Shown in pieces: positions 4,363 through 48,408 of a stretch of DNA of 52,317 nucleotides (the first letter of the stretch is position 1; each line of letters starts with the position of its first letter). A program made the translations under genes and the position numbers. Below the pieces are notes generated by a model. The model was given only the letters and a program-made list of their open reading frames with translations. It made no database searches and was not told the origin of the DNA. The DNA is from a virus, in IMG/VR virus record IMGVR_UViG_3300036828_000027, positions 1-52,317 of that record; one strand, given 5' to 3'.

Positions 4363-5109
4363 TTACTCCTGGCGCAGTATGTCGAGATGTTTCATTGCTA
4401 TCCAAGCTTGGGTTTCGTTTTGAGACTTGCCTGTTTCTTTGATCTCCTTGTCTAGTTGCTCTTTAAGATAAGATGCTAGTTCTTTGTGGGCATCAGCATT
4501 GCGAGGCATAATAAACAATAGAGACCAAGGCCATACCTCTAATACACTTGTGACCATTTGCTTTAATACTTCAGCATATTCGTCCTGAACTCTTGGAGTC
4601 ATACGCTTCTTGACTAGATCAGCAAAGTTGCGCAAGTTAATCTTCATACAAATATTGGTGAGTATATCTGTTGGCAATACTCCACGAGCATCCTCAGGCT
4701 TTGCTCCCAAATCAATTAGTGTTCGATATGTATTGCTAATAGTAGACATAGTAACAGCATATAAATTTTGAATAGTTTCATTGTCCTTTATTGACGGCCC
4801 AGTATGATATTCAAACCCAGTCATATCAACTATACGCATAGCTTGTTGAGCATAGCTTGCAGTCCTAGTCCTAACAAGTTGGTGAGTAAATGCCCTTGAT
4901 ACTCCTTCAATAACAAACATGAGGTCTACAAACTCCCATGAACTTGGGATCGTTGTAGACATATACTTCAATTCTGCCATCTTCTTCTCACGCGGCCAGG
5001 AGCGGATTTCATCCATTCCTTCTGGGCCCATCTTCAATCTTGTGTTCTTAGTAAAGATGAGCAACTCTATTGCTTCTGGCGTCGCATATAGTAATGTTAC
5101 CTTAGGCAT
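4363..5109 (-). CDS. thyX: Flavin-dependent thymidylate synthase
   Basis: A 248-residue ThyX, which makes dTMP from dUMP using FAD, NADPH and methylene-tetrahydrofolate. The region SRAFTHQLVRTRTASYAQQ followed by AMR (residues 71-92) is the phage form of the ThyX signature: the usual RHR is RTR, as in many phage homologues. Later segments (ARGVLPTDILTNICMKINLR and LRNFADLVKKR) are typical of the dUMP-binding and C-terminal regions. ATG at 5109 with AGGAGAG upstream. The gene for an FAD oxidoreductase-like protein lies immediately upstream in the same operon. Confidence 0.93.
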   Translation of the reverse strand: MPKVTLLYATPEAIELLIFTKNTRLKMGPEGMDEIRSWPREKKMAELKYMSTTIPSSWEFVDLMFVIEGVSRAFTHQLVRTRTASYAQQAMRIVDMTGFEYHTGPSIKDNETIQNLYAVTMSTISNTYRTLIDLGAKPEDARGVLPTDILTNICMKINLRNFADLVKKRMTPRVQDEYAEVLKQMVTSVLEVWPWSLLFIMPRNADAHKELASYLKEQLDKEIKETGKSQNETQAWIAMKHLDILRQE

Positions 5110-5118
5110 TGTTCTCTC

Positions 5119-6051
5119 CTATGTTGGGAAGTATCCGTAGTGTCCTGATCTTATCTGTCTTTGTGATATAAACCGGCTGATTACATCAATGTCTCCCATT
5201 ACATCATCGAGTAGTATCTGTCTCCAAGTAGCGTATCGTCCTAATGAATAGATATTGAATTTGTCAGTAGCCCACAGTATAAACTTCTGTCTTTCATAAT
5301 CATTTATTGGAACTATCTTGCCGTATTGCTGTTCCTTTTCAATGACATTAGTTATATCAATATGATTGATATCAAACATGAGACCAAGATATTTCTTAAT
5401 GTGATCGTCAATAATATCTGAGCAGTCAGGTTTATGCGCAAACTCCATTGTCATTCTATTGCCAGTAATGCTGACTCTATAAGGTTCATATTCTCCATAT
5501 GGAACATATAGAGTTTGGTATACATCTACACCTAATAGATCGCAATTAATAGTCCATATCTTTTTGGTTTCAAATTTAGGTTGTCTTGGATAGTCAAGTA
5601 TACGCATTAAATCCGGCATCGGAATTGTAGAAATAATTGGTTGTTCGATTTTGGTGCCTCTAAGTAAACTCTCAGCATTATGTTCGTATTTGATATCGGC
5701 TCCAATGCTACATGTCTTGACCAAGTCGTATGGCGCAATGTAGCGTGAAACATTTGCAATATTGGTAATAGATCGGTTGTAGGCTCCACCGGTTGATTTG
5801 ATAGAATAAGCATTATATTCTCTGATGGTTGGAGAATTTGTAATCGTTTCATCATCAAGAAGCACTCCTTTGTAGACAGTTACTTCTTTGAATGGAACGC
5901 CTATAGCATCTCCAACTATAGAGGATCGAAACCTCAGTAATGCACTATGATTATTTGGCAATTCTTTTTGCTGTTCATAAATGATAGGGTCCCAATGAAT
6001 TAATCTCCTGGCGGCCAGGAGGCCTGCCAATCCTGCGCCTAGGATAATCAT
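5119..6051 (-). CDS. FAD/NAD(P)-binding oxidoreductase-like protein
   Basis: A 310-residue protein beginning MIILGAGLAGLLAARRL, a GxGxxG Rossmann motif for FAD or NAD at the extreme N-terminus, followed by YEQQ, where an acidic residue for the ribose would sit. HSALLRFRSS and the C-terminal NIYSLGRYATWRQILLDDV resemble amine-oxidase or UDP-galactopyranose-mutase-like flavoproteins, where the last motif helps bind FAD. The substrate is unknown. It overlaps the upstream gene by ATGA and ends nine bases before thyX. One inference is that it supports flavin or folate chemistry, or modifies a nucleotide. The pair of GCCAGGAG copies at 6005-6021 encodes part of the first helix. Confidence 0.75.
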   Translation of the reverse strand: MIILGAGLAGLLAARRLIHWDPIIYEQQKELPNNHSALLRFRSSIVGDAIGVPFKEVTVYKGVLLDDETITNSPTIREYNAYSIKSTGGAYNRSITNIANVSRYIAPYDLVKTCSIGADIKYEHNAESLLRGTKIEQPIISTIPMPDLMRILDYPRQPKFETKKIWTINCDLLGVDVYQTLYVPYGEYEPYRVSITGNRMTMEFAHKPDCSDIIDDHIKKYLGLMFDINHIDITNVIEKEQQYGKIVPINDYERQKFILWATDKFNIYSLGRYATWRQILLDDVMGDIDVISRFISQRQIRSGHYGYFPT

Positions 6052-15380: not shown

Positions 15381-15980
15381 ATGAGACCAGATAGGTTGTT
15401 TGGAAATCTGCCACCAAAACGACCATTGATAAGTCTAGATGCCATTGTTGAAGATTGGCAAATGAGATTCATTAATGGTGATGCCAAGAAGTATCGCGAT
15501 ACTGTAGTTGATTACTGTATGAAAGCTAGTTCATTTGAAGAGGCAGTGCAACGCGCCTGTAGTTGTAGAAACGAACTAGGCAAAAAGCACAATCACCAAT
15601 CTAAGGTTCAAGACCATGTATTAAATACCTGGTCAAGTGTAATCATATTGAAAACATATCCAGAGCATCTTCAGAATTTTGATGAACTATTCGATCATTT
15701 AGAGGAAGTGCGTATTCGTGGTATTGGCCCTGTAACTCATTATGATGTGGCTACAAGAATTGGAGCTTACCTCAAACTAGAACCAGAACAACTATACTTA
15801 CACGCTGGAGTATTGGACGGCTGGAAGCTATTGCAGAAGTATAATATCAAATGGCCAATTAGAGTTCCACGTTCCTCCTGGCCCGCAGAATTACGTTGTC
15901 TACCTGCAGACCAGGTTGAAGACTTACTGTGTGCCTATCGAACATTTCTTAATCCTACAATGGGAGAGTATCATGGTTGA
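15381..15980 (+). CDS. Hypothetical protein with helix-hairpin-helix-like segment
   Basis: A 199-residue protein. VRIRGIGPVTHYDVATRIGA, followed by KLEPEQLYLHAGVLDGWKLL, resembles a helix-hairpin-helix motif of DNA-binding or glycosylase-type proteins, and this combination occurs in unnamed bacterial and phage proteins. The N-terminal half is helical with a cysteine pair (ACSC). GGAGAGG precedes the ATG. It overlaps the next gene by eight bases. DNA binding is inferred only from the motif. Confidence 0.6.
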   Translation: MRPDRLFGNLPPKRPLISLDAIVEDWQMRFINGDAKKYRDTVVDYCMKASSFEEAVQRACSCRNELGKKHNHQSKVQDHVLNTWSSVIILKTYPEHLQNFDELFDHLEEVRIRGIGPVTHYDVATRIGAYLKLEPEQLYLHAGVLDGWKLLQKYNIKWPIRVPRSSWPAELRCLPADQVEDLLCAYRTFLNPTMGEYHG

Positions 15981-17343
15981 TGTACCAACAACTGAACAGT
16001 TCAATTCTTTGGAGTCCAGAGTAACAACTCTAGAGAATGCCAATAATACTCCAATTAGTCCACCTGATAGTGGTGGCAATCCAAATCCAGGCACCGGCAC
16101 ACAAGCAAAACGTATCGTCGATCTGTTCAAATTTGGCGTCAATACATTTTCATCAATGGACACTAATAATGTATGGGGATCGTGGCCGGCAGACTACAGA
16201 CCTGATACAGTCATCGCAGCAATCAAGTTTATTGTACAGGATACTGGACATACGATATCAATACGCGAGTATCATTATGCTGGAAGAGAAAGTTGGCAGC
16301 AGCCCTGGCTCCAACAAATACATGCTCAGTTTCCTGAACAAGAAAACATCATGTGTGTTGGGGCCAATGGTTCCGTTAATGATGTAGCAAGTATGATTGC
16401 ATTACAGAAGGATGCAAGTACTGGTGTAAAGTATATTGAAGGTTTGAATGAACCAAATACCAACTTTGGAAGTGGAGAAGTGCCATACAATGTAACACAA
16501 GAAATTCAAGACGCAGTATTTAATGGCAATAAGGGATATTTACTTGGACCAAGCATAGTCGCAGGAACACCTCATCCAGAGGGATGGATTACTGGATACT
16601 GTGGAACACCAGAAAATCTAGCTGCGCTCAATAGTAAATTTGATATTGGCAACGGACATTACTATCCACCAGGGAGTCCAGATGTTGCCGACACAGGATA
16701 TAGTGTAGACAACTATATTGAAGGACTATGGATAGCATACGCCCATAAGCAAGCAGAGTTGACAGAGTTTCATCCTACATTGTATAATTCACAAGGCTTC
16801 AAACCCGGACAGGCAGATTGGAGCGATACACGAGATGCATACTATACTTTGACTACACTATTCCGTGTTGCTCAGAATGGAACTCGTTTCTTGTGGTGGT
16901 ATGCTCTGTTCGATTATGGCACTACATATCAATGTGGCCTATTCCCAACTAATCAAGACAATCCTCGTAGTGATGCTTATGGGTTGAGAGCATTGTGCAG
17001 TATCTGTTCGGATACTACTGGCGCCAGGAGAACATTTGATCCAGGTAAACTTGATTATGCTGTTTCACCCACTGATGACAATATCTCTCATGATCTCTAT
17101 CAGTCATCTGATGGTATATTCTATATTGCGTTGTGGCGTTCATCTGAACAACCTGGTGGTTCGGCAACTAATGTAGTTATTGATTTTGCTGACCCGCCAA
17201 AATTGGTGGAGGAATTCAACATCAGCGATATTGCTGCTAAGAAACAATTAACTGGATATCGACCTGTTCAATCAGTAGAGAACCAAACGCATTTTGTATC
17301 TATGCTTGATGCGTCGGCTCGTATTGTCAAAGTGACATATTAA
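15973..17343 (+). CDS. GH-A-like glycoside hydrolase with N-terminal coiled coil
   Basis: A 456-residue protein. Residues 6-25 (TTEQFNSLESRVTTLENANN) form a short coiled coil and 26-44 a proline/glycine linker. The rest resembles a clan GH-A (beta/alpha)8 hydrolase: KYIEGLNEPNTNF has the acid/base glutamate in the NEP motif (E160), AELTEFHPTLY carries a candidate nucleophile (E265), and a beta-rich domain ends the protein. Likely a polysaccharide-degrading enzyme; the substrate is unknown. The trimer-like N-terminus suggests attachment to the particle, yet it lies outside the structural block. ATG at 15973 with GGGAGAG; an earlier in-frame ATG is inside the previous gene. Confidence 0.72.
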   Translation: MVDVPTTEQFNSLESRVTTLENANNTPISPPDSGGNPNPGTGTQAKRIVDLFKFGVNTFSSMDTNNVWGSWPADYRPDTVIAAIKFIVQDTGHTISIREYHYAGRESWQQPWLQQIHAQFPEQENIMCVGANGSVNDVASMIALQKDASTGVKYIEGLNEPNTNFGSGEVPYNVTQEIQDAVFNGNKGYLLGPSIVAGTPHPEGWITGYCGTPENLAALNSKFDIGNGHYYPPGSPDVADTGYSVDNYIEGLWIAYAHKQAELTEFHPTLYNSQGFKPGQADWSDTRDAYYTLTTLFRVAQNGTRFLWWYALFDYGTTYQCGLFPTNQDNPRSDAYGLRALCSICSDTTGARRTFDPGKLDYAVSPTDDNISHDLYQSSDGIFYIALWRSSEQPGGSATNVVIDFADPPKLVEEFNISDIAAKKQLTGYRPVQSVENQTHFVSMLDASARIVKVTY

Positions 17344-27168: not shown

Positions 27169-27198
27169 CTAAGTTATAGTTTGGAAAGGACTAAGCAA

Positions 27199-27761: not shown

Positions 27762-28748
27762 ATGCCAGAGCATCTCCACTACGATGAAGCTGATATGCCT
27801 CCTATCTTGGCATTCATCGAACGAAACTTCAGGGAGGATCAAGTAGAAGTTACTGTTGCTGGTATCTGGCTAGCACGACAGCTTGACTATATTAAATCGC
27901 GAACGTATGATCGTTTGCGTCCAGGAATGAATGCTGACAGACTAGTTCCTGACGATACTAGCACGCCAGAATGGGTCGAGACTATTACCATTCGTGCATT
28001 TGATATGGTTGGAATGGCCAAGGTTATATCCAACTATGCAGATGATCTCCCGCGCGCGGACGTGGCAGGCATTGCCAAGACTGTTCAAGTAAAGACACTT
28101 GGCGATAGCTATGGCTATAATGTAAACGAATTGCGCGCCAGTAGAGCCACTGGTATTGGTCTGGATACTCGCAAGGCGGATGCTGCAAGGCGAGCAATGG
28201 ATCTTAAGATTGCTAGTATTAAGTTGAAGGGCGACCCTGACTTTAACTTGTTTGGATTGTTTACTCATCCTAATATTCCTGAGTATGTCTTTCCGCATCC
28301 TGGAGATTGGACTGCGCTGACTGGTGATCAAATCTATGAGAACCTTGTTGGTCTAGTCTCTGCTTATTCTATGCAGAACCTGGGCATCCATATTGCTAAC
28401 TTCTTGGAATTGGCAACTAAAGCATACGTGGCTGCCACATCCAAATTCGTTACCGGGCCAGGAGGTTTGCCCATATCTGCTCTGAGTTTGTTTTCTGCTA
28501 ACTTCCCTGGTGTGACAGTAGAGCATATTTGGGAATGCACTAATGCAGGGCAAGACGTAAATGCTGGTAAAGATGTTGCTTTGCTCTATGAGCGCGACAT
28601 CGGTAATCTTGCACACGAGTTTGTAATGCCATTCTCGCAGTTGCCGCCTGATGCGCGCAATCTAGAAATCGTCACCGATTGCCTCGCGCGTAGTGGTGGT
28701 GTTCAGGTTTACTATCCTTTGGCTTTGCTGAAGGGCTATACAACCTAA
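27762..28748 (+). CDS. Major capsid protein (DUF2184 type)
   Basis: A 328-residue protein of the DUF2184 capsid family, presumably HK97-fold: VEVTVAGIWLARQLDYIKSR, TPEWVETITIRAFDMVGMAK, KADAARRAMDLKIASIKLKG, GLFTHPNIPEY and the C-terminal RSGGVQVYYPLALLKGYTT. Forms the shell. It has a leader gap of 32 bases after the cement gene. Confidence 0.9.
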   Translation: MPEHLHYDEADMPPILAFIERNFREDQVEVTVAGIWLARQLDYIKSRTYDRLRPGMNADRLVPDDTSTPEWVETITIRAFDMVGMAKVISNYADDLPRADVAGIAKTVQVKTLGDSYGYNVNELRASRATGIGLDTRKADAARRAMDLKIASIKLKGDPDFNLFGLFTHPNIPEYVFPHPGDWTALTGDQIYENLVGLVSAYSMQNLGIHIANFLELATKAYVAATSKFVTGPGGLPISALSLFSANFPGVTVEHIWECTNAGQDVNAGKDVALLYERDIGNLAHEFVMPFSQLPPDARNLEIVTDCLARSGGVQVYYPLALLKGYTT

Positions 28749-28960
28749 TGGCTGTTGTGGTAAACAACAGCGTTAGAGCAATAACTATAATTGATGTTCT
28801 ACTCACGCCTGGAATACAAACTGAAATAAAGGATGAATACCTAGATCATCCTGGCGTTCAGAAACTATTCAAGGAAGTGACTGAACACAATGTGCCTGTG
28901 CTAGTAATTGTTGAGGAGAAACAGCCACAAGAGCATGAGCTTTTGGCCAAAGCTCAATAG
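28748..28960 (+). CDS. Small protein following the capsid gene
   Basis: A 70-residue protein (MAVVVNNSVRAITIIDVLLT...), TAATG-coupled to the capsid gene. It may be a head-associated or connector accessory protein by position. No family recognised. Confidence 0.6.
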   Translation: MAVVVNNSVRAITIIDVLLTPGIQTEIKDEYLDHPGVQKLFKEVTEHNVPVLVIVEEKQPQEHELLAKAQ

Positions 28961-29580: not shown

Positions 29581-29607
29581 TTATCCGGCTGTAACCTGGA
29601 GGGAGAT

Positions 29608-30255
29608 ATGAAGAAGCTAGCAGCTATCATCGTCGCAGGAGCATTGTTCTTTCCTGCTGTTGCCTTTGCTATTCCTATCATTCAGTTTGCTCAGACCAGT
29701 AATAACAATACTATTACTGCAACAGCGAATGCTGGTGATACGGCAACTACAATTGCTGGAACCGATGTTGCAATAAATGTAGCACAAGATCTTGGAGGCA
29801 CTCTTGGTGCTGCATTCCTAGATTTGACTGCTACTAGTGTTGACAGTGCTGTAGCGGTTGGCACTGGTGCTGTCCAACACTATAATGGATCGTTCTCAGT
29901 CTTTACTGGTGCCGGTATGACTGGAGTTAATCTCCTGTCAGGAATGTTTACTGATGCCGCTCTTGGCGTTGGTGGTGCGCTTACTCTCGCTATTGGCGCG
30001 CCTCCTGATTTGCTTCACTTGACTTCTGCTCTAATTTCTGCGTCTCAATTGGTCAATCCTGATGCAGCTGCGTTTAGTTTGACCAATGTGCTGCCGCCGA
30101 TCTCTATTGTCGGATCAACTATTGATAGCTTCACAGCTACAGTATCCGGCAATGTATCGTCGTCAGTCGCTGCTGTTCCTGAGCCCGCTCCTATTGCTAT
30201 ACTTGGGATGGGGCTTATTGGTCTTGGAATGCTTCGTATCCGGCGCCAGGAGTAA
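29608..30255 (+). CDS. Secreted protein with PEP-CTERM sorting signal
   Basis: A 215-residue protein. It has an N-terminal signal peptide (MKKLAAIIVAGALFFPAVAF, then A), a threonine/serine/alanine-rich beta-type body, and a textbook C-terminus: VPEP at 193-196, the hydrophobic APIAILGMGLIGLGML, and basic RIRRQE at the end. PEP-CTERM tails are cut by exosortases during export to the surface of EPS-producing Gram-negative bacteria. The gene is on the phage strand between capsid and neck genes, has GGAGGG before the ATG, and ends in a GCCAGGAG octamer (30245-30252), so it is not an assembly error. Its role is unknown. Confidence 0.85.
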   Translation: MKKLAAIIVAGALFFPAVAFAIPIIQFAQTSNNNTITATANAGDTATTIAGTDVAINVAQDLGGTLGAAFLDLTATSVDSAVAVGTGAVQHYNGSFSVFTGAGMTGVNLLSGMFTDAALGVGGALTLAIGAPPDLLHLTSALISASQLVNPDAAAFSLTNVLPPISIVGSTIDSFTATVSGNVSSSVAAVPEPAPIAILGMGLIGLGMLRIRRQE

Positions 30256-30263
30256 CACTACCA

Positions 30264-30776
30264 GTGTCTGATGTAAAGACACTTCCGCAAGAACCTCCAC
30301 ATTGGACAAATGTGGAGGCACTCTTGCAATTATTCTATCCGCAATTCTTTGACGAAACTAATCCAGACTATGTTGATCCAACTATACTGTTACAGCTGGC
30401 GACATTGGCTGAAGAGTCACGACCGTGGTGTCTTCCTCCTGGCCAGCAAGACTTAGCACAAGCAGCATTTACTGCATATTTAGTCTCGTTGCGTAATGAA
30501 ACTAGTTCTGGTGTTACTCAAGTTCCAACGATAGGCCCAATATCATCTGAAAAGGAAGGTGATATTGCAGTAACATATGCTGCGACTACTACAAATACAC
30601 AATCCGGTATGTCACAAAGACCACCATCCGATGCTTGGGATACTTGGAATAGATTGTATATGCGTTGCGCTAAAGGTTCAATCCTAACTCGTTTTGGTGA
30701 TCCTTGCAGATCCTCGCAAGCATTAACTGATTACATTAATCCATTAGCAATGAATGTTTGGTATCCGATATGGTAG
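30264..30776 (+). CDS. Head-tail adaptor-like protein (DUF4054 type)
   Basis: A 170-residue protein with a GTG start; AGGAG of the GCCAGGAG octamer lies 11 bases upstream. LLQLFYPQFFDETNPDYVDP...CLPPGQQDLAQAAFTAYLVS and DAWDTWNRLYMRCA are typical of the DUF4054 adaptor proteins that bind below the portal. It overlaps the following gene by seven bases. Confidence 0.7.
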   Translation: MSDVKTLPQEPPHWTNVEALLQLFYPQFFDETNPDYVDPTILLQLATLAEESRPWCLPPGQQDLAQAAFTAYLVSLRNETSSGVTQVPTIGPISSEKEGDIAVTYAATTTNTQSGMSQRPPSDAWDTWNRLYMRCAKGSILTRFGDPCRSSQALTDYINPLAMNVWYPIW

Positions 30777-31216
30777 CATTTAAAGATAAAGATATGGGAT
30801 GGAAGAAGATAGAATTGAATATGAAACAATTGAAAGGACGCAGAGTCAAAGTTGGTATTATGGGTAACGAAAGTGTTGAAGGCACATCCGTTATTGACTA
30901 TGCTATTTATAATGAGTTTGGCACTCGCAGTATACCTAGTCGGCCTTTCATGGCTACAACTGCTGATAGATATAGAGATCAGACGGTTAAATTTGCTGAG
31001 AACGTGGTTGGAAATATAATTGATCTAAAGTATACTGTAGATATTGGATTGGCTAGACTTGGCGCGTTCTATCAATCTAAAGTTCAGCAAACAATACGAG
31101 ATGCTAAGGAATGGGCTGTCCCTAATGATCCCAAAACTATAGCTGCGAAAGGTTCTAGTTCTCCATTGATTGATACTGGTCGTATGGTTGGCTCAGTAAG
31201 GTATGAAGTAGAATGA
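30770..31216 (+). CDS. Neck / tail-completion-like protein
   Basis: A 148-residue protein (MVAFKDKDMGWKKIELNMKQ). VKVGIMG, SVIDYAIYNEFGTRSIPSRP and FMATT are the conserved elements of HK97 gp10-like or virion-morphogenesis tail-completion proteins (VGI...A...EFGT...IPxRPF). The start at 30770 overlaps the preceding stop. It connects head and tail. Confidence 0.75.
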   Translation: MVAFKDKDMGWKKIELNMKQLKGRRVKVGIMGNESVEGTSVIDYAIYNEFGTRSIPSRPFMATTADRYRDQTVKFAENVVGNIIDLKYTVDIGLARLGAFYQSKVQQTIRDAKEWAVPNDPKTIAAKGSSSPLIDTGRMVGSVRYEVE

Positions 31217-39365: not shown

Positions 39366-40347
39366 TAGAACGTATAGGTTATTGGTGGGTAAGAAAGGTC
39401 AATCTCAAGGTGTAGAGATTACTGACTCTTTGCGTATTCAATTTGATATTGAAAAGACTGCCAAGAAAAATCCTAACAAGAGCACTATTAAAGTATACAA
39501 TTTGAGGAAAGAAACAAGAGCAGAGTTTGAAAAGCCTGATACTAGAGTTGTGTTATATGCTGGATACAAGGACGAAGCAGGAGCAATATTAATCTTTCAA
39601 GGTAGTGTAAGTTATGCGTGGTCAAGAAAAGATGGACCTGATCTTATTACGGAATTTGAACTTGGAGATGGTGCTACAGAAATACGTGATACGACAATAT
39701 CAGTTGGCTACGGTAAAGGTATTAAATCAACTCAAGTTCTCAATGATGTCTCCAAACAGATGGGGCTGCCGTTAACTTTGCCCAATAATGCTCCAACTAG
39801 AGTTTGGAATAATGGCCTGTCGTTTCATGGTCCTGCTAGAACATTATTAGATAAGGTTACTAAAGGAACCAATCTAGAATGGTCTATACAGAATGGAAAC
39901 TTACAGGTCATAGAGAATGGTATGGTAACAACTAGACAAGGGATATTGATATCACAGAGTAGTGGTATGATTGGTTCTCCTGAAAGAGAACGATTGGCCA
40001 AAGCGCATACGCATGCTAAAGATAAAGGCAAGACTGTCGGACAGCCAATCATAGAACCTGATTATGATGGCTGGAAAGTAAAGTCATTGCTTATGCCTAC
40101 ACTTAATCCTGGTGATAGAATTCAACTAGAGGCACTATTTGTAACTGGGATTTACAGAATAGAAGAAATCAAACACCAAGGAGATAGTGATGCCACTGGC
40201 GATTGGCAATCAGAATTGCGCGTTGTCGATCCTAGAAAGCCAATAAAGGATACTAAAGGTGCTACTCAAAAAGGAACAGTAAGTGATGATTCTATTACTG
40301 AGGATGATTTGATAGACGCTGGAGGAATGCTCTATGTTGCGGCTTAA
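39355..40347 (+). CDS. Baseplate hub protein
   Basis: About 330 residues. The TTG at 39355, with GGGGAG ten bases upstream, gives [20 protein letters not shown], the usual start of these hubs; an ATG at 39337 is also in frame. [20 protein letters not shown] and [28 protein letters not shown], then [13 protein letters not shown] are typical of gpD/gp44-like hubs, which form the ring beneath the tube and hold the spike. Confidence 0.82.
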
Positions 40348-42421
40348 TCTAACTGAACTAATTGAGCAGCAAATAGAGGTTCAACTTGGCAATACTTTGA
40401 ATACAAGTATGCCAGCCAAGATCATTAGTTATAATGCAGCAACTAATCGTGCTGTTGTAAAGCCTGTATTGCCTAAGAGACTAGCAAGTGAAGAGCCATT
40501 AGACTCACCTCAAATTGTAGAAGTTCCAGTTGTATTCCCTGCTTCTGGCGGTGGTAAAGCTAGTATGACTTTCCCGCTTAAGCCAGGTGATGGAGTTATG
40601 CTTGCTGTTCAACAAAGATCAATGGAAGGATGGCTGGATGGCAAAGAAACGATGCCGGATGATCCTCGGCAATTCGATCTTTCTGATAGTGTGGCCATTG
40701 CTGGCTGTCAGCCTTCTGGTATTGTTGGTGATCCCGACAATGTTGTTTTGAAGTTTGATAAATGCACTGTCACTCTAACAAAAGATAATAGTGTAGTAGT
40801 AGCAACAGAGAAAGCCAATATAGTTGTAGATAAAGATGGCAACATAAACCAAACAGCACAGCAATCATATGTCGTTACTGCGCCTGCAATAACCTTGGGA
40901 GGATCAGGTTTAGATCGCGCGCCTGGCAATATTCAAGTTAACTCGCATATGCATATTCTACCACCTGCTTCTGCTGATGAAGCTGCCAATAAAGAATATG
41001 TTGATAGTGTAGCTAGTAGTGGAGTTCAAGGCCCACCTGGACCGCAGGGACCAGAGGGACCACAAGGTGAAATAGGACCACCAGGACCACAAGGCCCAAC
41101 TGGCGCTGATTCTACTGTTCCAGGACCGCAAGGACCACAAGGTAATACTGGACCTGCTGGACCTAAAGGTGATACTGGTCAACAAGGCCCAACTGGTCCA
41201 CAAGGGCCACAAGGAGCAGACAGTACAGTTCCAGGGCCAGTAGGACCGCAAGGACCAATTGGAGATACTGGACCTCAAGGCCCACAAGGAGATACTGGAC
41301 CTCAAGGCCCACAAGGAGCTATACCTGAAGCTCCAAATGATATTTCTACTTATGGTAGATCAAGTAATGCTTGGGTGCCAATTCCTGAATTGAAATGGAT
41401 TGCTAATAATATTGGTTGGGACCCTGGTAATATTGATCCCAATAATCAAGGACATATTGGAACATGGATAGTTTCAAATCAAGATGATGCTGCTTTAGGA
41501 TGGCCTGCTAGTAATCCTGATAAAACTGCAATGATTTTACATGGCTATAATAGTAATGCTGGATGGCAAAACCAATTGATGATGGGTGGTCGTGAGCGAG
41601 GTGGCGGTCCAGCAATTTGGTATCGTAGCACTCAAGATGGCGATTGGGGACCATGGAGCCGTTTATTTAGTGATGCTGGTGGAACAATTAGTGGACCTGT
41701 AACTCTTAATGCTGCATTGATTACTAATGATATTGCAAGTCATAGATCAGGCATTGATTTTAACAGCGCTGTTGTATCTAGTCCAAATGATCTTTCAAAA
41801 CATATTAATATGTATGGCGGAATGTATGGTTTCAATATTACTGGTAGCACACTGAATTATAATAGTGGAGTTGTACATAATTGGTGGGTTGGTCTGACTA
41901 ATGTAATGATGCTTAACTCTAGTGGCTTAAGCATGTATGCCCCAATCATTCTGCCTAGTGAACCTATAGGTTTATGGGAAGCAGTTCCTAAAATTTATTC
42001 TGATCGCAACAAAACTCGTGGTCTTATAGATGTAACTTCTGGCGCAGTTACTGCGACTGATAGTGAAGTAGATTATGCTTATATTTACATCTATGGATCG
42101 CCTACTGCCCCAGCCACAGTTACAATGCCAGTGACAACTACCACTCGCATAATGTGGACGCTCAATAATACAACACAACAACCAGTTACATTCCAAGGAG
42201 TAAGTGGCGGCACTATTACTGTGCATTCTGGCGCTTCGCAAGGAGTATGGACCGATACTGGTGGCATTTATCCATTATATAATGCCGGTCAAACACGACC
42301 AGCTGGAGACAACTCGACGTTCTGGGCCACTACTGAATATGTAGACACACAAATAACTACCCTGTCAGCTAGACTTGCTACTCTTGAAGCTGCTAACTCG
42401 CAATGGGACGTAGGAGTGTAA
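40334..42421 (+). CDS. Baseplate spike (Gp138-N-like) fused to collagen-like repeats and a fibre
   Basis: A 695-residue protein in three parts. Residues 1-200 resemble the Gp138 N-terminal spike domain ([80 protein letters not shown]). Residues 230-329 are collagen-like Gly-x-y triplets rich in GPQGP. Residues 330-695 are a fibre-like region with WRLF-type text ([20 protein letters not shown]) and a C-terminal [20 protein letters not shown] coiled coil. Normally spike and fibres are separate; this would give a membrane-piercing tip with a trimeric collagen stalk and a terminal head. Confidence 0.8.
41021..41320 (+). repeat. Collagen-like triplet repeats
   Basis: One hundred codons of Gly-x-y triplets, interrupted twice by GADSTVPGP. 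At DNA level short tandem repeats are visible, for example two consecutive copies of a 24-base unit (GGACCTCAAGGCCCACAAGG plus GAGA) near 41273-41318. Such repeats can change length by recombination, altering stalk length. Confidence 0.9.
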
Positions 42422-45436: not shown

Positions 45437-46639
45437 ATGGTATCTCTAATTGATTTCACTAAACCTATATATGGCGAACCGACTACACAAAGCGTGAGAG
45501 ATAACTTTCAAATAGCAAATCAAGAAATAACTGATATACAGAACCTATTGACTGGTGACCTAGGTTTCATTTCTCAAGGTGATGCTGATCTACGTTACTT
45601 GCAACTAATTGGAGGTGTATTAACTGGTGATTTGAATGGCGCTGGTGTTTATGGAACTTCTGTTAGTTCATCAGGTAATGTAAATGCCACTGGCGTATTT
45701 ACTGGAGGTTCTGTAGACGTAACAGGTAATGTAAGATCAGGCAGCAGTCTAATGGTGGCCAGCGGCATTACTTTTGTCGCGGACAATTATGCTTATTATA
45801 GTGGTCGATCTAGTTCTGATGGCGTCTGGCGTTGGGTTCAGAATAACGCTGAGTTAATGTCTTTAGATACTGCTGGAAGTTTACATGCAATAGGTAATAT
45901 GTGGTGTAATGCTGGTCTATGGTGTTATGGAAGTCTGTTAGCATATAGTGGTCGTATTTTATCTCAGGCTGGAGCTAATAACGTTTCAGTAACTTGTTAT
46001 GATACATCACTGGGTTATGCTGCTGGCATGTGTGTTCAATCTGGCAATGCTGCAGGTCTATTTTTTGGCGCAATGGATGGTAATGGAAATGTAGCTGCTT
46101 GGTTAGGATATATTGCTGCTGGTTCTATTGGATGCAATAATGCCTCAGCTGCTTTCTGTAATTATAATGGCGCCTATTCTTTATTGTGGGGTGATCAGAC
46201 TGCTATGACTGTTCCTGGTGCGGCTTGGAAACCTGGAGGTGGATCATGGGCTGATAGTTCTGATTTAAGAATTAAGAACGTGATTGGCGATTATACTTCT
46301 GGCCTGGAGGCAATACTAGCACTCCGCCCCATTCGTTATAATCTCAAAGGCAATTGGAGTTATATTGAAGGTCGAAATGCCGAGGTATCACGCGACAAGA
46401 AACCAGCAATACAAGCGCCACATGATATTGCAGCTGAAGCAGGAACAGAATTTATTGGCTTTGTTGCTCAAGAGTTGGAAACTATAATGCCAGAAATGGT
46501 CAATAAAATACCTGCTAAGATTGATGGTAAACTAGTAGATGATCTACGGACTGTAGACATTACTGCTTTACCATTTGCATTGGTTAATGCTATTAAGGAG
46601 ATCAATGCTAGACTAACAGGACTAGAAGCCCGTGTTTGA
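45437..46639 (+). CDS. Tail fibre with C-terminal S74 chaperone
   Basis: A 400-residue protein. The N-terminal 35 residues (VSLIDFTKPIYGEPTTQSVR, DNFQIANQEITDIQ) are shared with the fibre at 32504 and probably anchor to the baseplate. The middle is repetitive beta (GNVNATGVFTGGSVDVTGNV). The C-terminus is an intramolecular chaperone of peptidase family S74: SSDLRIK with the S-x(4)-K spacing (S275, K280), ALRPIRYNL, FIGFVAQELETIMPE and ALPFALVNAIKEINARL. The chaperone trimerises the fibre and then cuts itself off. Confidence 0.88.
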   Translation: MVSLIDFTKPIYGEPTTQSVRDNFQIANQEITDIQNLLTGDLGFISQGDADLRYLQLIGGVLTGDLNGAGVYGTSVSSSGNVNATGVFTGGSVDVTGNVRSGSSLMVASGITFVADNYAYYSGRSSSDGVWRWVQNNAELMSLDTAGSLHAIGNMWCNAGLWCYGSLLAYSGRILSQAGANNVSVTCYDTSLGYAAGMCVQSGNAAGLFFGAMDGNGNVAAWLGYIAAGSIGCNNASAAFCNYNGAYSLLWGDQTAMTVPGAAWKPGGGSWADSSDLRIKNVIGDYTSGLEAILALRPIRYNLKGNWSYIEGRNAEVSRDKKPAIQAPHDIAAEAGTEFIGFVAQELETIMPEMVNKIPAKIDGKLVDDLRTVDITALPFALVNAIKEINARLTGLEARV

Positions 46640-46670: not shown

Positions 46671-46871
46671 TTGGCTATACAAATTGAACTTCCACAGGAG
46701 GAATGGATTAAGATATTGGATATGCTCGCAGACTATCCATTCAGAAGAGTTGCTCCACTAATACAAACTTTACAACAGCAACTAATGCCACAAATGCAGC
46801 AACCGATGCCACAAATGCCACAAAGAAACAATGGTGAAGCTCGCACACCGCCGCCAGGAGGAAACAACTAA
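46671..46871 (+). CDS. Small protein between the two S74 fibres
   Basis: A 66-residue protein from the TTG at 46671 (MAIQIELPQEEWIKILDMLA...), with AAGGAG eight bases upstream. The C-terminal half is a methionine/glutamine/proline repeat (LMPQMQQPMPQMPQ), then PPPGGNN. The in-frame GTG at 46632 overlaps the fibre stop and is less likely. No family recognised. Confidence 0.62.
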   Translation: MAIQIELPQEEWIKILDMLADYPFRRVAPLIQTLQQQLMPQMQQPMPQMPQRNNGEARTPPPGGNN

Positions 46872-46872
46872 T

Positions 46873-48408
46873 ATGTCAACTTGGTGGGACCGTTTCAATC
46901 AAAGTTGGTCTACTATTGGTCCACTCGATGATCCGACACCAGCACAAGCAGATGCTGGATGGGAGTATATTGGACAGGCCCCACCAACAGTTGAACAATT
47001 TAATAGTGTGCATCAGTGGTGGGATAAGAAAGACAATTGGCTATTTAATCAAATCGCTACAGTAATTACTAAAGCCAATTTGGTTCCTGCTGAAGATGAT
47101 CCATTACTACTGTGGGAGTCAATCAAATTTATATTTGAAGCTCCCAATGATGCTTACATCTATGCTCGTGGGCAATTGGGGTGGCATAGTGGCGGCACAT
47201 TTAGTGGTGACTTTGCTGCTGGTGCTATTTCTGCTAGAGGCGCTATTAGTTCTGCTACAGCTGTAACTGCTGGTAGCAATATCAATGCTGGTGGCAATAT
47301 CAATGCTGGCACATATTTGTTATCTGGCTCTGATGTTTATGTTGGCACAAAACTTTGGATTGGTGGTGCTGCTTCCCCATTTACTATGTCAAGAGGTGGT
47401 GGTTATCAATATATAATACATTCTACTGAATGGTATGATAGATATAATGAAGCAAATGGTGATCGTCATTGGATAGGTAATCTTGGATCTGGCGCACAGA
47501 CATTAATGCAATTAGTTGCTGGCAGTTTATGGTGCGCTGTAGATGTTGCTGCCGCTAGAAATCTATCATCTGGTGGAACTATTTCTGGACAATATTTATA
47601 TTCTGCTGGCAATGTAAGTGCTGCTGGTGATTTAACTGGCGCTAATGTTCGTGTTACTAATGTATATGCTAGTGGAGGGACATTTGAAGTAGGACCAGGC
47701 TACTATATGCAAAGAGGCGGCGATGGAATGTGGAGGTGGGTGGAAGCTAGCGTCACTAAAATGCAGTTATCCTCTGTTGGATTTTTATGGATAGCTCAGA
47801 ATTTAAGTTGCAGTCAAGCAGTAGATTGGAGAGACAGTTCATTAGCAGGTTGCTTTGGAACCACCCCTGGTTCTGCATTTAGATTTTATTCTGACGGCAC
47901 AGGCGCTGCATTCCAGCAACTAGGCGTTCAAGGTTGGGGTAGTATTATGAGTTACAATACTCAGATATACCCCTATGGTGGTGGTGCTTGGAGTAGTGAT
48001 ATTTATGGTAATACTTCACAAAATGGACAATGTGCTGCAACATCATTCCCTGTTATATCGGATGCAACTGTTAAAACTAATGTTCGTCCTTGGTCTCCTG
48101 ACCTAGCTAAAATATTGGGTATTGAAACAGTATCATTTCAGTATCGTGATGCCATTATTAAAGACAAAGGCATTACTCATTATGGAGTAACTGCGCAACA
48201 AATTCAAACTGTATTGCCTGAAGCAATAGTTACTTTGAAGATAGACAACACTACCAAGATTATCACCGACCCGAATGATTCTGATAAGGCTGTGGACAAT
48301 GGCACTAATGCAATTGATGTATTGTCAGTTGACATGAATGTTATTCTATATGCTTGCGTTAATGCGATCAAACAACTATCGGCACGATTGGATGCTGCTA
48401 AGATATGA
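46873..48408 (+). CDS. Second tail fibre with S74-type chaperone
   Basis: A 511-residue protein from the ATG at 46873 (MSTWWDRFNQSWSTIGPLDD), with AGGAGGAAA provided by a GCCAGGAG copy. Text such as WEYIGQAPPTVEQFNSVHQW and WLFNQIATVITKA is a common tail-fibre anchor. The repetitive middle is followed by an S74-type end: ISDATVKTNVRPWSPDLAKI (S-x(4)-K kept), HYGVTAQQIQTVLPEA and LYACVNAIKQLSARL. It probably forms a second receptor-binding fibre with its own chaperone. Confidence 0.85.
   Translation: MSTWWDRFNQSWSTIGPLDDPTPAQADAGWEYIGQAPPTVEQFNSVHQWWDKKDNWLFNQIATVITKANLVPAEDDPLLLWESIKFIFEAPNDAYIYARGQLGWHSGGTFSGDFAAGAISARGAISSATAVTAGSNINAGGNINAGTYLLSGSDVYVGTKLWIGGAASPFTMSRGGGYQYIIHSTEWYDRYNEANGDRHWIGNLGSGAQTLMQLVAGSLWCAVDVAAARNLSSGGTISGQYLYSAGNVSAAGDLTGANVRVTNVYASGGTFEVGPGYYMQRGGDGMWRWVEASVTKMQLSSVGFLWIAQNLSCSQAVDWRDSSLAGCFGTTPGSAFRFYSDGTGAAFQQLGVQGWGSIMSYNTQIYPYGGGAWSSDIYGNTSQNGQCAATSFPVISDATVKTNVRPWSPDLAKILGIETVSFQYRDAIIKDKGITHYGVTAQQIQTVLPEAIVTLKIDNTTKIITDPNDSDKAVDNGTNAIDVLSVDMNVILYACVNAIKQLSARLDAAKI

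Follow-up and report, generated by a model that had tools for sequence, protein, structure and literature searches.

What is a protein with a bacterial surface-sorting tag doing in the head operon of a phage? The exosortase/PEP-CTERM system is known from bacteria as a surface and matrix system, in which substrates are exported by Sec, tethered to the membrane by their tail, processed by exosortase, and delivered to the outer surface or matrix (PMC12188702). The window analyzed here, a stretch of 52,317 bases from an IMG/VR virus record, carries an open reading frame (ORF) that a preliminary description had recognized as a PEP-CTERM protein. Its features are as follows:

29598-29605, plus strand: strong Shine-Dalgarno sequence of the PEP-CTERM gene, GGAGGGAG, read from the sequence
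29608-30255, plus strand: gene for a PEP-CTERM secreted protein of 215 aa, with ATG start and TAA stop; TIGR02595 above cut-off
29608-29670, plus strand: predicted Sec signal peptide, residues 1 to 21, MKKLAAIIVAGALFFPAVAFA, without a lipobox Cys, read from the sequence
29671-30162, plus strand: all-beta body, residues 22 to 185, in an AlphaFold2 model; no known family or fold matched
30175-30186, plus strand: VPEP tag, residues 190 to 193
30187-30246, plus strand: hydrophobic helix, residues 194 to 209, and basic cluster RIRR, residues 210 to 213 (helix 194-214 in the model)
30175-30249, plus strand: TIGR02595 match in the genome search, 23 bits

Judged from its sequence, the identity of the product as a PEP-CTERM protein is solid. 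The TIGR02595 score was 18.9 bits for the window protein and, when the genome was searched, 23 bits, both over the curated cut-off of 16, while PF07589 gave 19.6 bits for the window protein against a gathering score of 20.7, and 26.6 bits for its highest-identity relative, L033 (numbers with L denote loci of other phages). The preliminary description had let its identification depend on the C terminus passing PEP-CTERM models, and it does: residues 190 to 213, VPEPAPIAILGMGLIGLGMLRIRR, comprise the VPEP motif, the helix, and the RIRR end. The termini of the protein read ...FFPAVAFA for the signal peptide and VPEPAPIAILGMGLIGLGMLRIRRQE; the signal peptide ends in an AFA site, of which A19 and A21 are, as read from the alignment, conserved in at least 90% of the family. 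No lipobox cysteine was found in the window protein or in the family consensus. The gene has, as had been noted, the phage's base composition, in that its GC content of 47.7% does not stand out from that of the capsid gene (46.8%; whole window, 41.6%).

The location between capsid and neck genes was likewise confirmed. Upstream lie portal, Mu-F, protease, cement, and capsid genes, the cement gene being separate at 27181, and the immediate neighborhood is composed of the following:

27762-28748, plus strand: major capsid protein, upstream (PF09950, 1.4e-35; phrog_264, 5e-72)
28748-28960, plus strand: small conserved post-capsid ORF, followed directly by DUF4054 in L002
28993-29538, plus strand: proline-rich repeat protein, often adjoining the PEP-CTERM gene; no family match
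30245-30252, plus strand: GCCAGGAG, Shine-Dalgarno sequence for DUF4054 downstream, lying across the final PEP-CTERM codons
30264-30776, plus strand: DUF4054/phrog_302 head protein, downstream, with a GTG start at 30264
30758-31216, plus strand: Neck1/tail completion protein, downstream (phrog_222, 1.4e-41)

The octamer GCCAGGAG had been taken as a mark of fixation in the phage, and it ends the PEP-CTERM gene in the window, in L033, and, as AGCCAGGAG, in L057. However, it also stands just before DUF4054 in L002, whose slot lacks a PEP-CTERM gene. We therefore assign it as the ribosome-binding site of the next gene and reject it as a phage mark. The PEP-CTERM gene is co-oriented with the operon, no terminators were found, and a single promoter-like site was detected where 2.3 were expected; this operon position suggests that the gene is probably expressed late.

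Several further observations concern this neighborhood. The proline-rich protein is built of DNSLP, GIWPPP, and HPIAP units and a short globular stretch, with homologues in L001, L005, L006, L009, L010, L033, L057, L099, L145, L155, and L164. In seven of these (L033, L057, L006, L009, L155, L099, and L145) the gene adjoins a PEP-CTERM gene, which it accompanies also at other positions and in other phage types. The two genes possibly form a linked two-gene cassette, and the homology needs care because the matches are of low complexity. Between the PEP-CTERM gene and DUF4054, L011 (5698-6045) and L015 (12079-12426) encode a protein of 115 aa that probably has two membrane segments. Where the slot between capsid and DUF4054 lacks a PEP-CTERM gene, L026 has a protein weakly matching Big_2 (bacterial Ig-like; 5092-5550) and L004 a similar-looking protein without a Pfam match (1483-2001), as if the slot took surface-type cargo in general. 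Elsewhere in the window, the product of 15970-17343, outside the tail module, matches a glycosyl-hydrolase catalytic core weakly (PF11790, 19.7 bits; cut-off, 21) and is possibly a depolymerase or lysis-related enzyme. Two tail fibers (45437-46639 and 46831-48408) have S74 chaperone ends, the former sharing only its N terminus with L011 and L015, and a spike-like protein (40334-42421) has a phage N-terminal domain followed by collagen repeats (PF01391).

A single match to a 24-residue tail is weak evidence, and relatives of the whole protein were therefore sought. As a lone query, the window protein retrieved no relatives from viral contigs or from cultured phages, a null result that was misleading, since relatives emerged only via capsid loci and a profile. 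A search with the capsid protein returned 55 related loci, in which the gap between capsid and DUF4054 holds homologous PEP-CTERM proteins in L033, L011 to L014/L049, L015, and L009; in L006, the same slot holds a PEP-CTERM protein with an unrelated body. In a blind regular-expression scan of the 55 related loci and the window for such tails, 10 of 11 matches were the gene in this one slot. A five-sequence profile retrieved 61 viral contigs, and a 45-sequence profile at least 112 IMG/VR contigs, which by a count of the listed contig names come from some 60 or more metagenomes. The carriers are tailed phages of several unrelated types, with GC contents of 39 to 66%.

Two pattern scans with profiles of 84,980 GTDB genomes returned no relatives, and tblastn of PLSDB plasmids and 50,697 phage records found none either. 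These scans rest on short conserved peptides and detect close bodies, so that remote bacterial bodies may escape them. Close bacterial relatives of the family body are, from these searches, unlikely to exist, and within the collections scanned the family is phage specific, with swapped alleles and several genomic positions. An orphan host gene was rejected as its identity on the strength of the two GTDB scans.

The tag is the signature of the family. E192-P193 is invariant in all 45 aligned members, and every one of them has at least three basic residues within its last 14, so that chance is excluded at the family level. PF07589 matches 42 of the 45 at an E value of at most 0.01, and TIGR02595 finds one or two copies above cut-off in each of 26 phage records out of 27; L057 fails this model altogether. 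Within the body, 16 residues between positions 75 and 151 are invariant. The QHYSG and FTDAA motifs were used in the search, and their constancy is partly a product of that selection, whereas the tag was not used. AlphaFold2, run with the family alignment, modeled the all-beta body and the C-terminal helix with a mean pLDDT of 84.8 and a pTM of 0.73. Foldseek against PDB and BFVD gave no match at an E value of 1e-3 or below, and a PDB sequence search gave no usable match. Apart from PEP-CTERM, the window protein matched nothing in PHROG and Pfam, and bodies stripped of the tail matched no Pfam or NCBIfam model and no PEP-CTERM family. Cysteines at positions 97 and 104 (window numbering) are both present in 28 members, both missing in 15, and present singly in 2; in the model, they lie on or beside one beta hairpin. 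Co-variation of a cysteine pair on one hairpin suggests a disulfide, formed in an oxidizing compartment, and hence a protein that would be extracytoplasmic.

We then considered whether the phage maintains the gene, as had been claimed in calling it fixed. Between the window and L033, the dN/dS ratio of the PEP-CTERM gene is 0.12, similar to those of neighboring head genes (capsid, 0.08; DUF4054, 0.11; Neck1, 0.13; most neighbors, 0.08 to 0.13), and purifying selection is clear. Prevalence was assessed in contigs found by their capsid (at least 60% identity) and not by PEP-CTERM, which avoids counting the search itself. The gene is present in 10 of 11 such contigs of at least 20 kb, or 7 of 8 distinct lineages, and in none of 17 remote capsid relatives (39 to 48% identity). 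The claim of fixation thus holds on these grounds. In related phages, the gene occupies five head-module positions: between capsid and DUF4054 in the window and its kin, upstream of terL (L018, L022, and L027), between terL and portal (L099 and L145), between portal and MuF (L097), and between protease and cement (L135). The slot of L002 has neither the proline-rich nor the PEP-CTERM gene; its head genes are otherwise collinear, and the post-capsid gene abuts DUF4054.

The family is also found in clearly different tailed phages (51 to 66% GC), where copies lie beside the portal gene of a phrog_156 phage (L066), close to a further phrog_264 capsid gene (L088), ahead of a phrog_9 terminase (L126) or a Terminase_6N gene (L152), or next to an Erf gene (L105) or tail proteins (L082 and L133). 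Seven loci have a second, tandem PEP-CTERM gene with another body: L071 (8003-8722), L089 (8474-9397), L094 (8522-9391), L102 (8523-9263), L103, L106 (4737-5516), and L108 (8601-9380). Tandem genes were also listed for L114 (649-1377 and 1439-2107). The tandem copy of L106 had no match in cultured phages. Since this tag is also borne by unrelated bodies, whether in an identical slot (L006) or as tandem copies, surface delivery itself seems to be under selection.

Two side observations were made at these loci. In some of the tandem bodies, the tag is immediately preceded by a Cys-x-x-Cys motif (SCPDCVINP). In several phages, a probable right-handed beta-helix protein recurs beside PEP-CTERM genes (L066, 6822-7931; L091, 6800-7963; L094, 6024-7196; L098, 6701-7834; L102, 6474-7496; L106, 5589-6584; L108, 5943-7208; L162, 8353-9429); it starts like TVxxGQSIQxAIxAAxxGDTIDV with no evident signal peptide, and the Pfam models NosD and Beta_helix match the copy in L066.

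The PEP-CTERM gene does not follow the history of the head genes around it. L011 and L015 are 99% identical in the tube, 91% in the capsid, and 90% in the sheath protein but only 49% in the PEP-CTERM protein; for L011 and the window, identity is 63% in the capsid and 69% in the PEP-CTERM protein. Of the genes common to the L011 and L015 structural modules, that for the PEP-CTERM protein has diverged furthest, beyond cement (70%) and two fiber-region proteins (56 and 63%). In a quick tree of the PEP-CTERM proteins, with the tested groups named from head genes, a clade of L011 and L015 was rejected (p-AU 0.0004), as was a single clade of all capsid-slot copies (p-AU 0.0007). These comparisons indicate that homologous or foreign alleles have taken the place of the gene, with the surrounding head left as it was. 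Exchange at conserved loci, faster than that of fibers, suggests a specificity that pays to change; it fits a surface-interaction protein and, in particular, adsorption blocking.

We propose, with moderate confidence, that the protein is a phage-specific exosortase substrate that coats or modifies infected cells or their debris and in this way probably blocks adsorption. T5 Llp, a lipoprotein, provides a precedent for receptor-blocking superinfection exclusion on the infected cell. In our model, the PEP-CTERM protein would be translated late, together with the head genes; Sec would export it and the signal peptide would be removed, with the C-terminal helix holding the protein in the inner membrane. 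A host exosortase would then cut at the PEP tag, releasing the beta-rich body to the outer surface or exopolysaccharide of the host, which it would reach while virions assemble. There, the displayed body would alter the surface of the dying cell and, in an Llp-like manner, keep phages, whether of its own kind or competitors, from adsorbing to the infected cell and to the debris left after lysis. Export and exosortase processing we infer from the known biology of the tag; late expression, adsorption blocking, and the coating role we infer more weakly. Many other late functions at the cell surface would leave the same picture, and the body has no recognizable binding fold. Exosortase mutants have a changed exoproteome and surface-polysaccharide adhesion (PMC12188702). 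For anchoring of progeny, another role raised by the preliminary description, we found no support.

The most important link in this chain is the putative host exosortase. None was found in 36 phage records tested, in a search whose control was positive, and a host enzyme is therefore needed. The 52,317-base window has no tRNA, and the best named terL relatives, at 51% identity, are those of Rhizobium phages, which does not fix the host.

The nearest rival to adsorption blocking is manipulation of the matrix: the processed protein would join host exopolysaccharide much as PepA does and alter the cohesion of flocs or biofilms, so that progeny are either released or kept near fresh hosts. In bacteria, PEP-CTERM proteins have roles in the matrix of flocs and biofilms (PMC9850573, PMC12188702), and overexpression of PepA shifts exopolysaccharide from soluble to cell bound (PMC9850573). 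Beta-helix proteins adjoin PEP-CTERM genes in several other phages, and five slot homologues match NF033554 (floc PepA) weakly, at 36 to 44 bits. However, the cut-off of that model is 80 bits and tail-less bodies do not match it, late expression would leave little time for rebuilding a matrix, and fast allele exchange suits specificity better than bulk cohesion. We consider a matrix role unlikely. Membership of PepA itself was rejected, since the window protein reaches 39 bits and tail-less bodies have no match.

It is conceivable that the tag matters more than the body and that the protein acts as a decoy, flooding the host exosortase so that, late in infection, the host's PEP-CTERM proteins are no longer displayed or its exopolysaccharide is no longer assembled. 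The tag is indeed the most constant part across unrelated bodies, and a strong ribosome site in a late operon would imply a high dose, but a decoy has no need for a body with 16 invariant residues and a dN/dS of 0.12, nor for tandem copies with different bodies, which makes this improbable. We judge quite improbable an envelope-disrupting lysis or u-spanin-like protein, whose signal peptide, beta-rich ectodomain, and C-terminal membrane helix would match in overall topology and which would also be expressed late. A u-spanin combines a lipobox with a C-terminal membrane segment; here, the segment is present and the lipobox absent, leaving no outer-membrane anchor, and on this basis a u-spanin or lipoprotein was rejected. 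Moreover, the gene lies in head modules, and what is conserved is the 24-residue PEP-CTERM profile, not just any helix.

A head decoration protein in the virion is suggested by the position among capsid genes, the slot adjoining the capsid gene and the ORF overlapping the ribosome site of the next gene. We find this very improbable, given the signal peptide, membrane tail, and co-varying cysteines, the five head-module positions and, in other phages, the locations next to an Erf gene or tail genes, the empty slot of L002 in an otherwise collinear head region, and the lack of a match to any decoration or cement family in a phage with a separate cement gene. Finally, recent chance pick-up of a host gene with no phage function, which the abundance of PEP-CTERM proteins in exosortase-bearing hosts might bring to mind, is scarcely credible, being contradicted by the selection data, the presence of the gene in 10 of 11 relatives, and the occurrence of relatives, by one and the same method, in at least 112 viral contigs against 0 of 84,980 GTDB genomes.

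Adsorption blocking by a displayed protein remains our preferred reading. Somewhat more tentatively, we suggest that tailed phages of several unrelated types own an exosortase-delivered surface family whose alleles are exchanged like exclusion or immunity specificities. If so, exosortase-bearing hosts would face phages that display phage-encoded proteins on infected cells via the host's sorting system, and a phage-only surface family suggests that phages change the infected-cell surface through the host's own export machinery. A phage-only substrate family in head operons makes phage use of the sorting pathway directly testable with one gene, one tag, and one host enzyme. The family would also mark phages of exosortase-bearing, floc- and biofilm-forming bacteria, and it offers natural display domains that exosortase hosts accept.

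Among known systems, T5 Llp is alike in proposed role only, that of a phage product exported onto the infected cell to keep phages from adsorbing; Llp uses a lipobox, whereas the window protein has none and its display would depend on a host exosortase. Aspects of T5 structure are treated in PMC9586334. Morons and other cargo genes of morphogenesis operons resemble our gene in presence or absence at a fixed slot, movement between slots, and exchange of alleles: the gene is missing from the L002 slot and lies elsewhere in L022, L027, L097, L099, L135, and L145. Unlike a classical moron, it showed no promoter or terminator of its own and no foreign composition, and it is translationally fitted to the next gene. 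TIGR03118 proteins, which have a putative exosortase-interaction tail, were listed as host-derived transfers in hot-spring viral contigs (PMC11003980). They share with our family the occurrence of exosortase-type tails in viral contigs, but they belong to a different family and, as far as stated, are not in a head operon. That list apart, a literature search with most subscription journals outside its scope found no paper on a phage PEP-CTERM family.

PepA (NF033554; Zoogloea and Aquincola) is likewise a secreted PEP-CTERM protein, and its profile bears a weak resemblance across the C-terminal two thirds, but the slot homologues reach only 36 to 44 of the 80 bits required, and the gene for PepA is a bacterial one under regulation rather than a late gene of a phage. 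With the exosortase PEP-CTERM proteins at large (TIGR02595/PF07589), the window protein shares a Sec signal peptide, variable body, PEP motif, membrane helix, and basic end. It differs from them in being phage encoded in a head operon, with no exosortase or PEP-CTERM partner genes nearby, and in a body family not found in the bacterial genomes scanned. PEP-CTERM tails are known; what is new is the body family and the viral home of a true PEP-CTERM protein.
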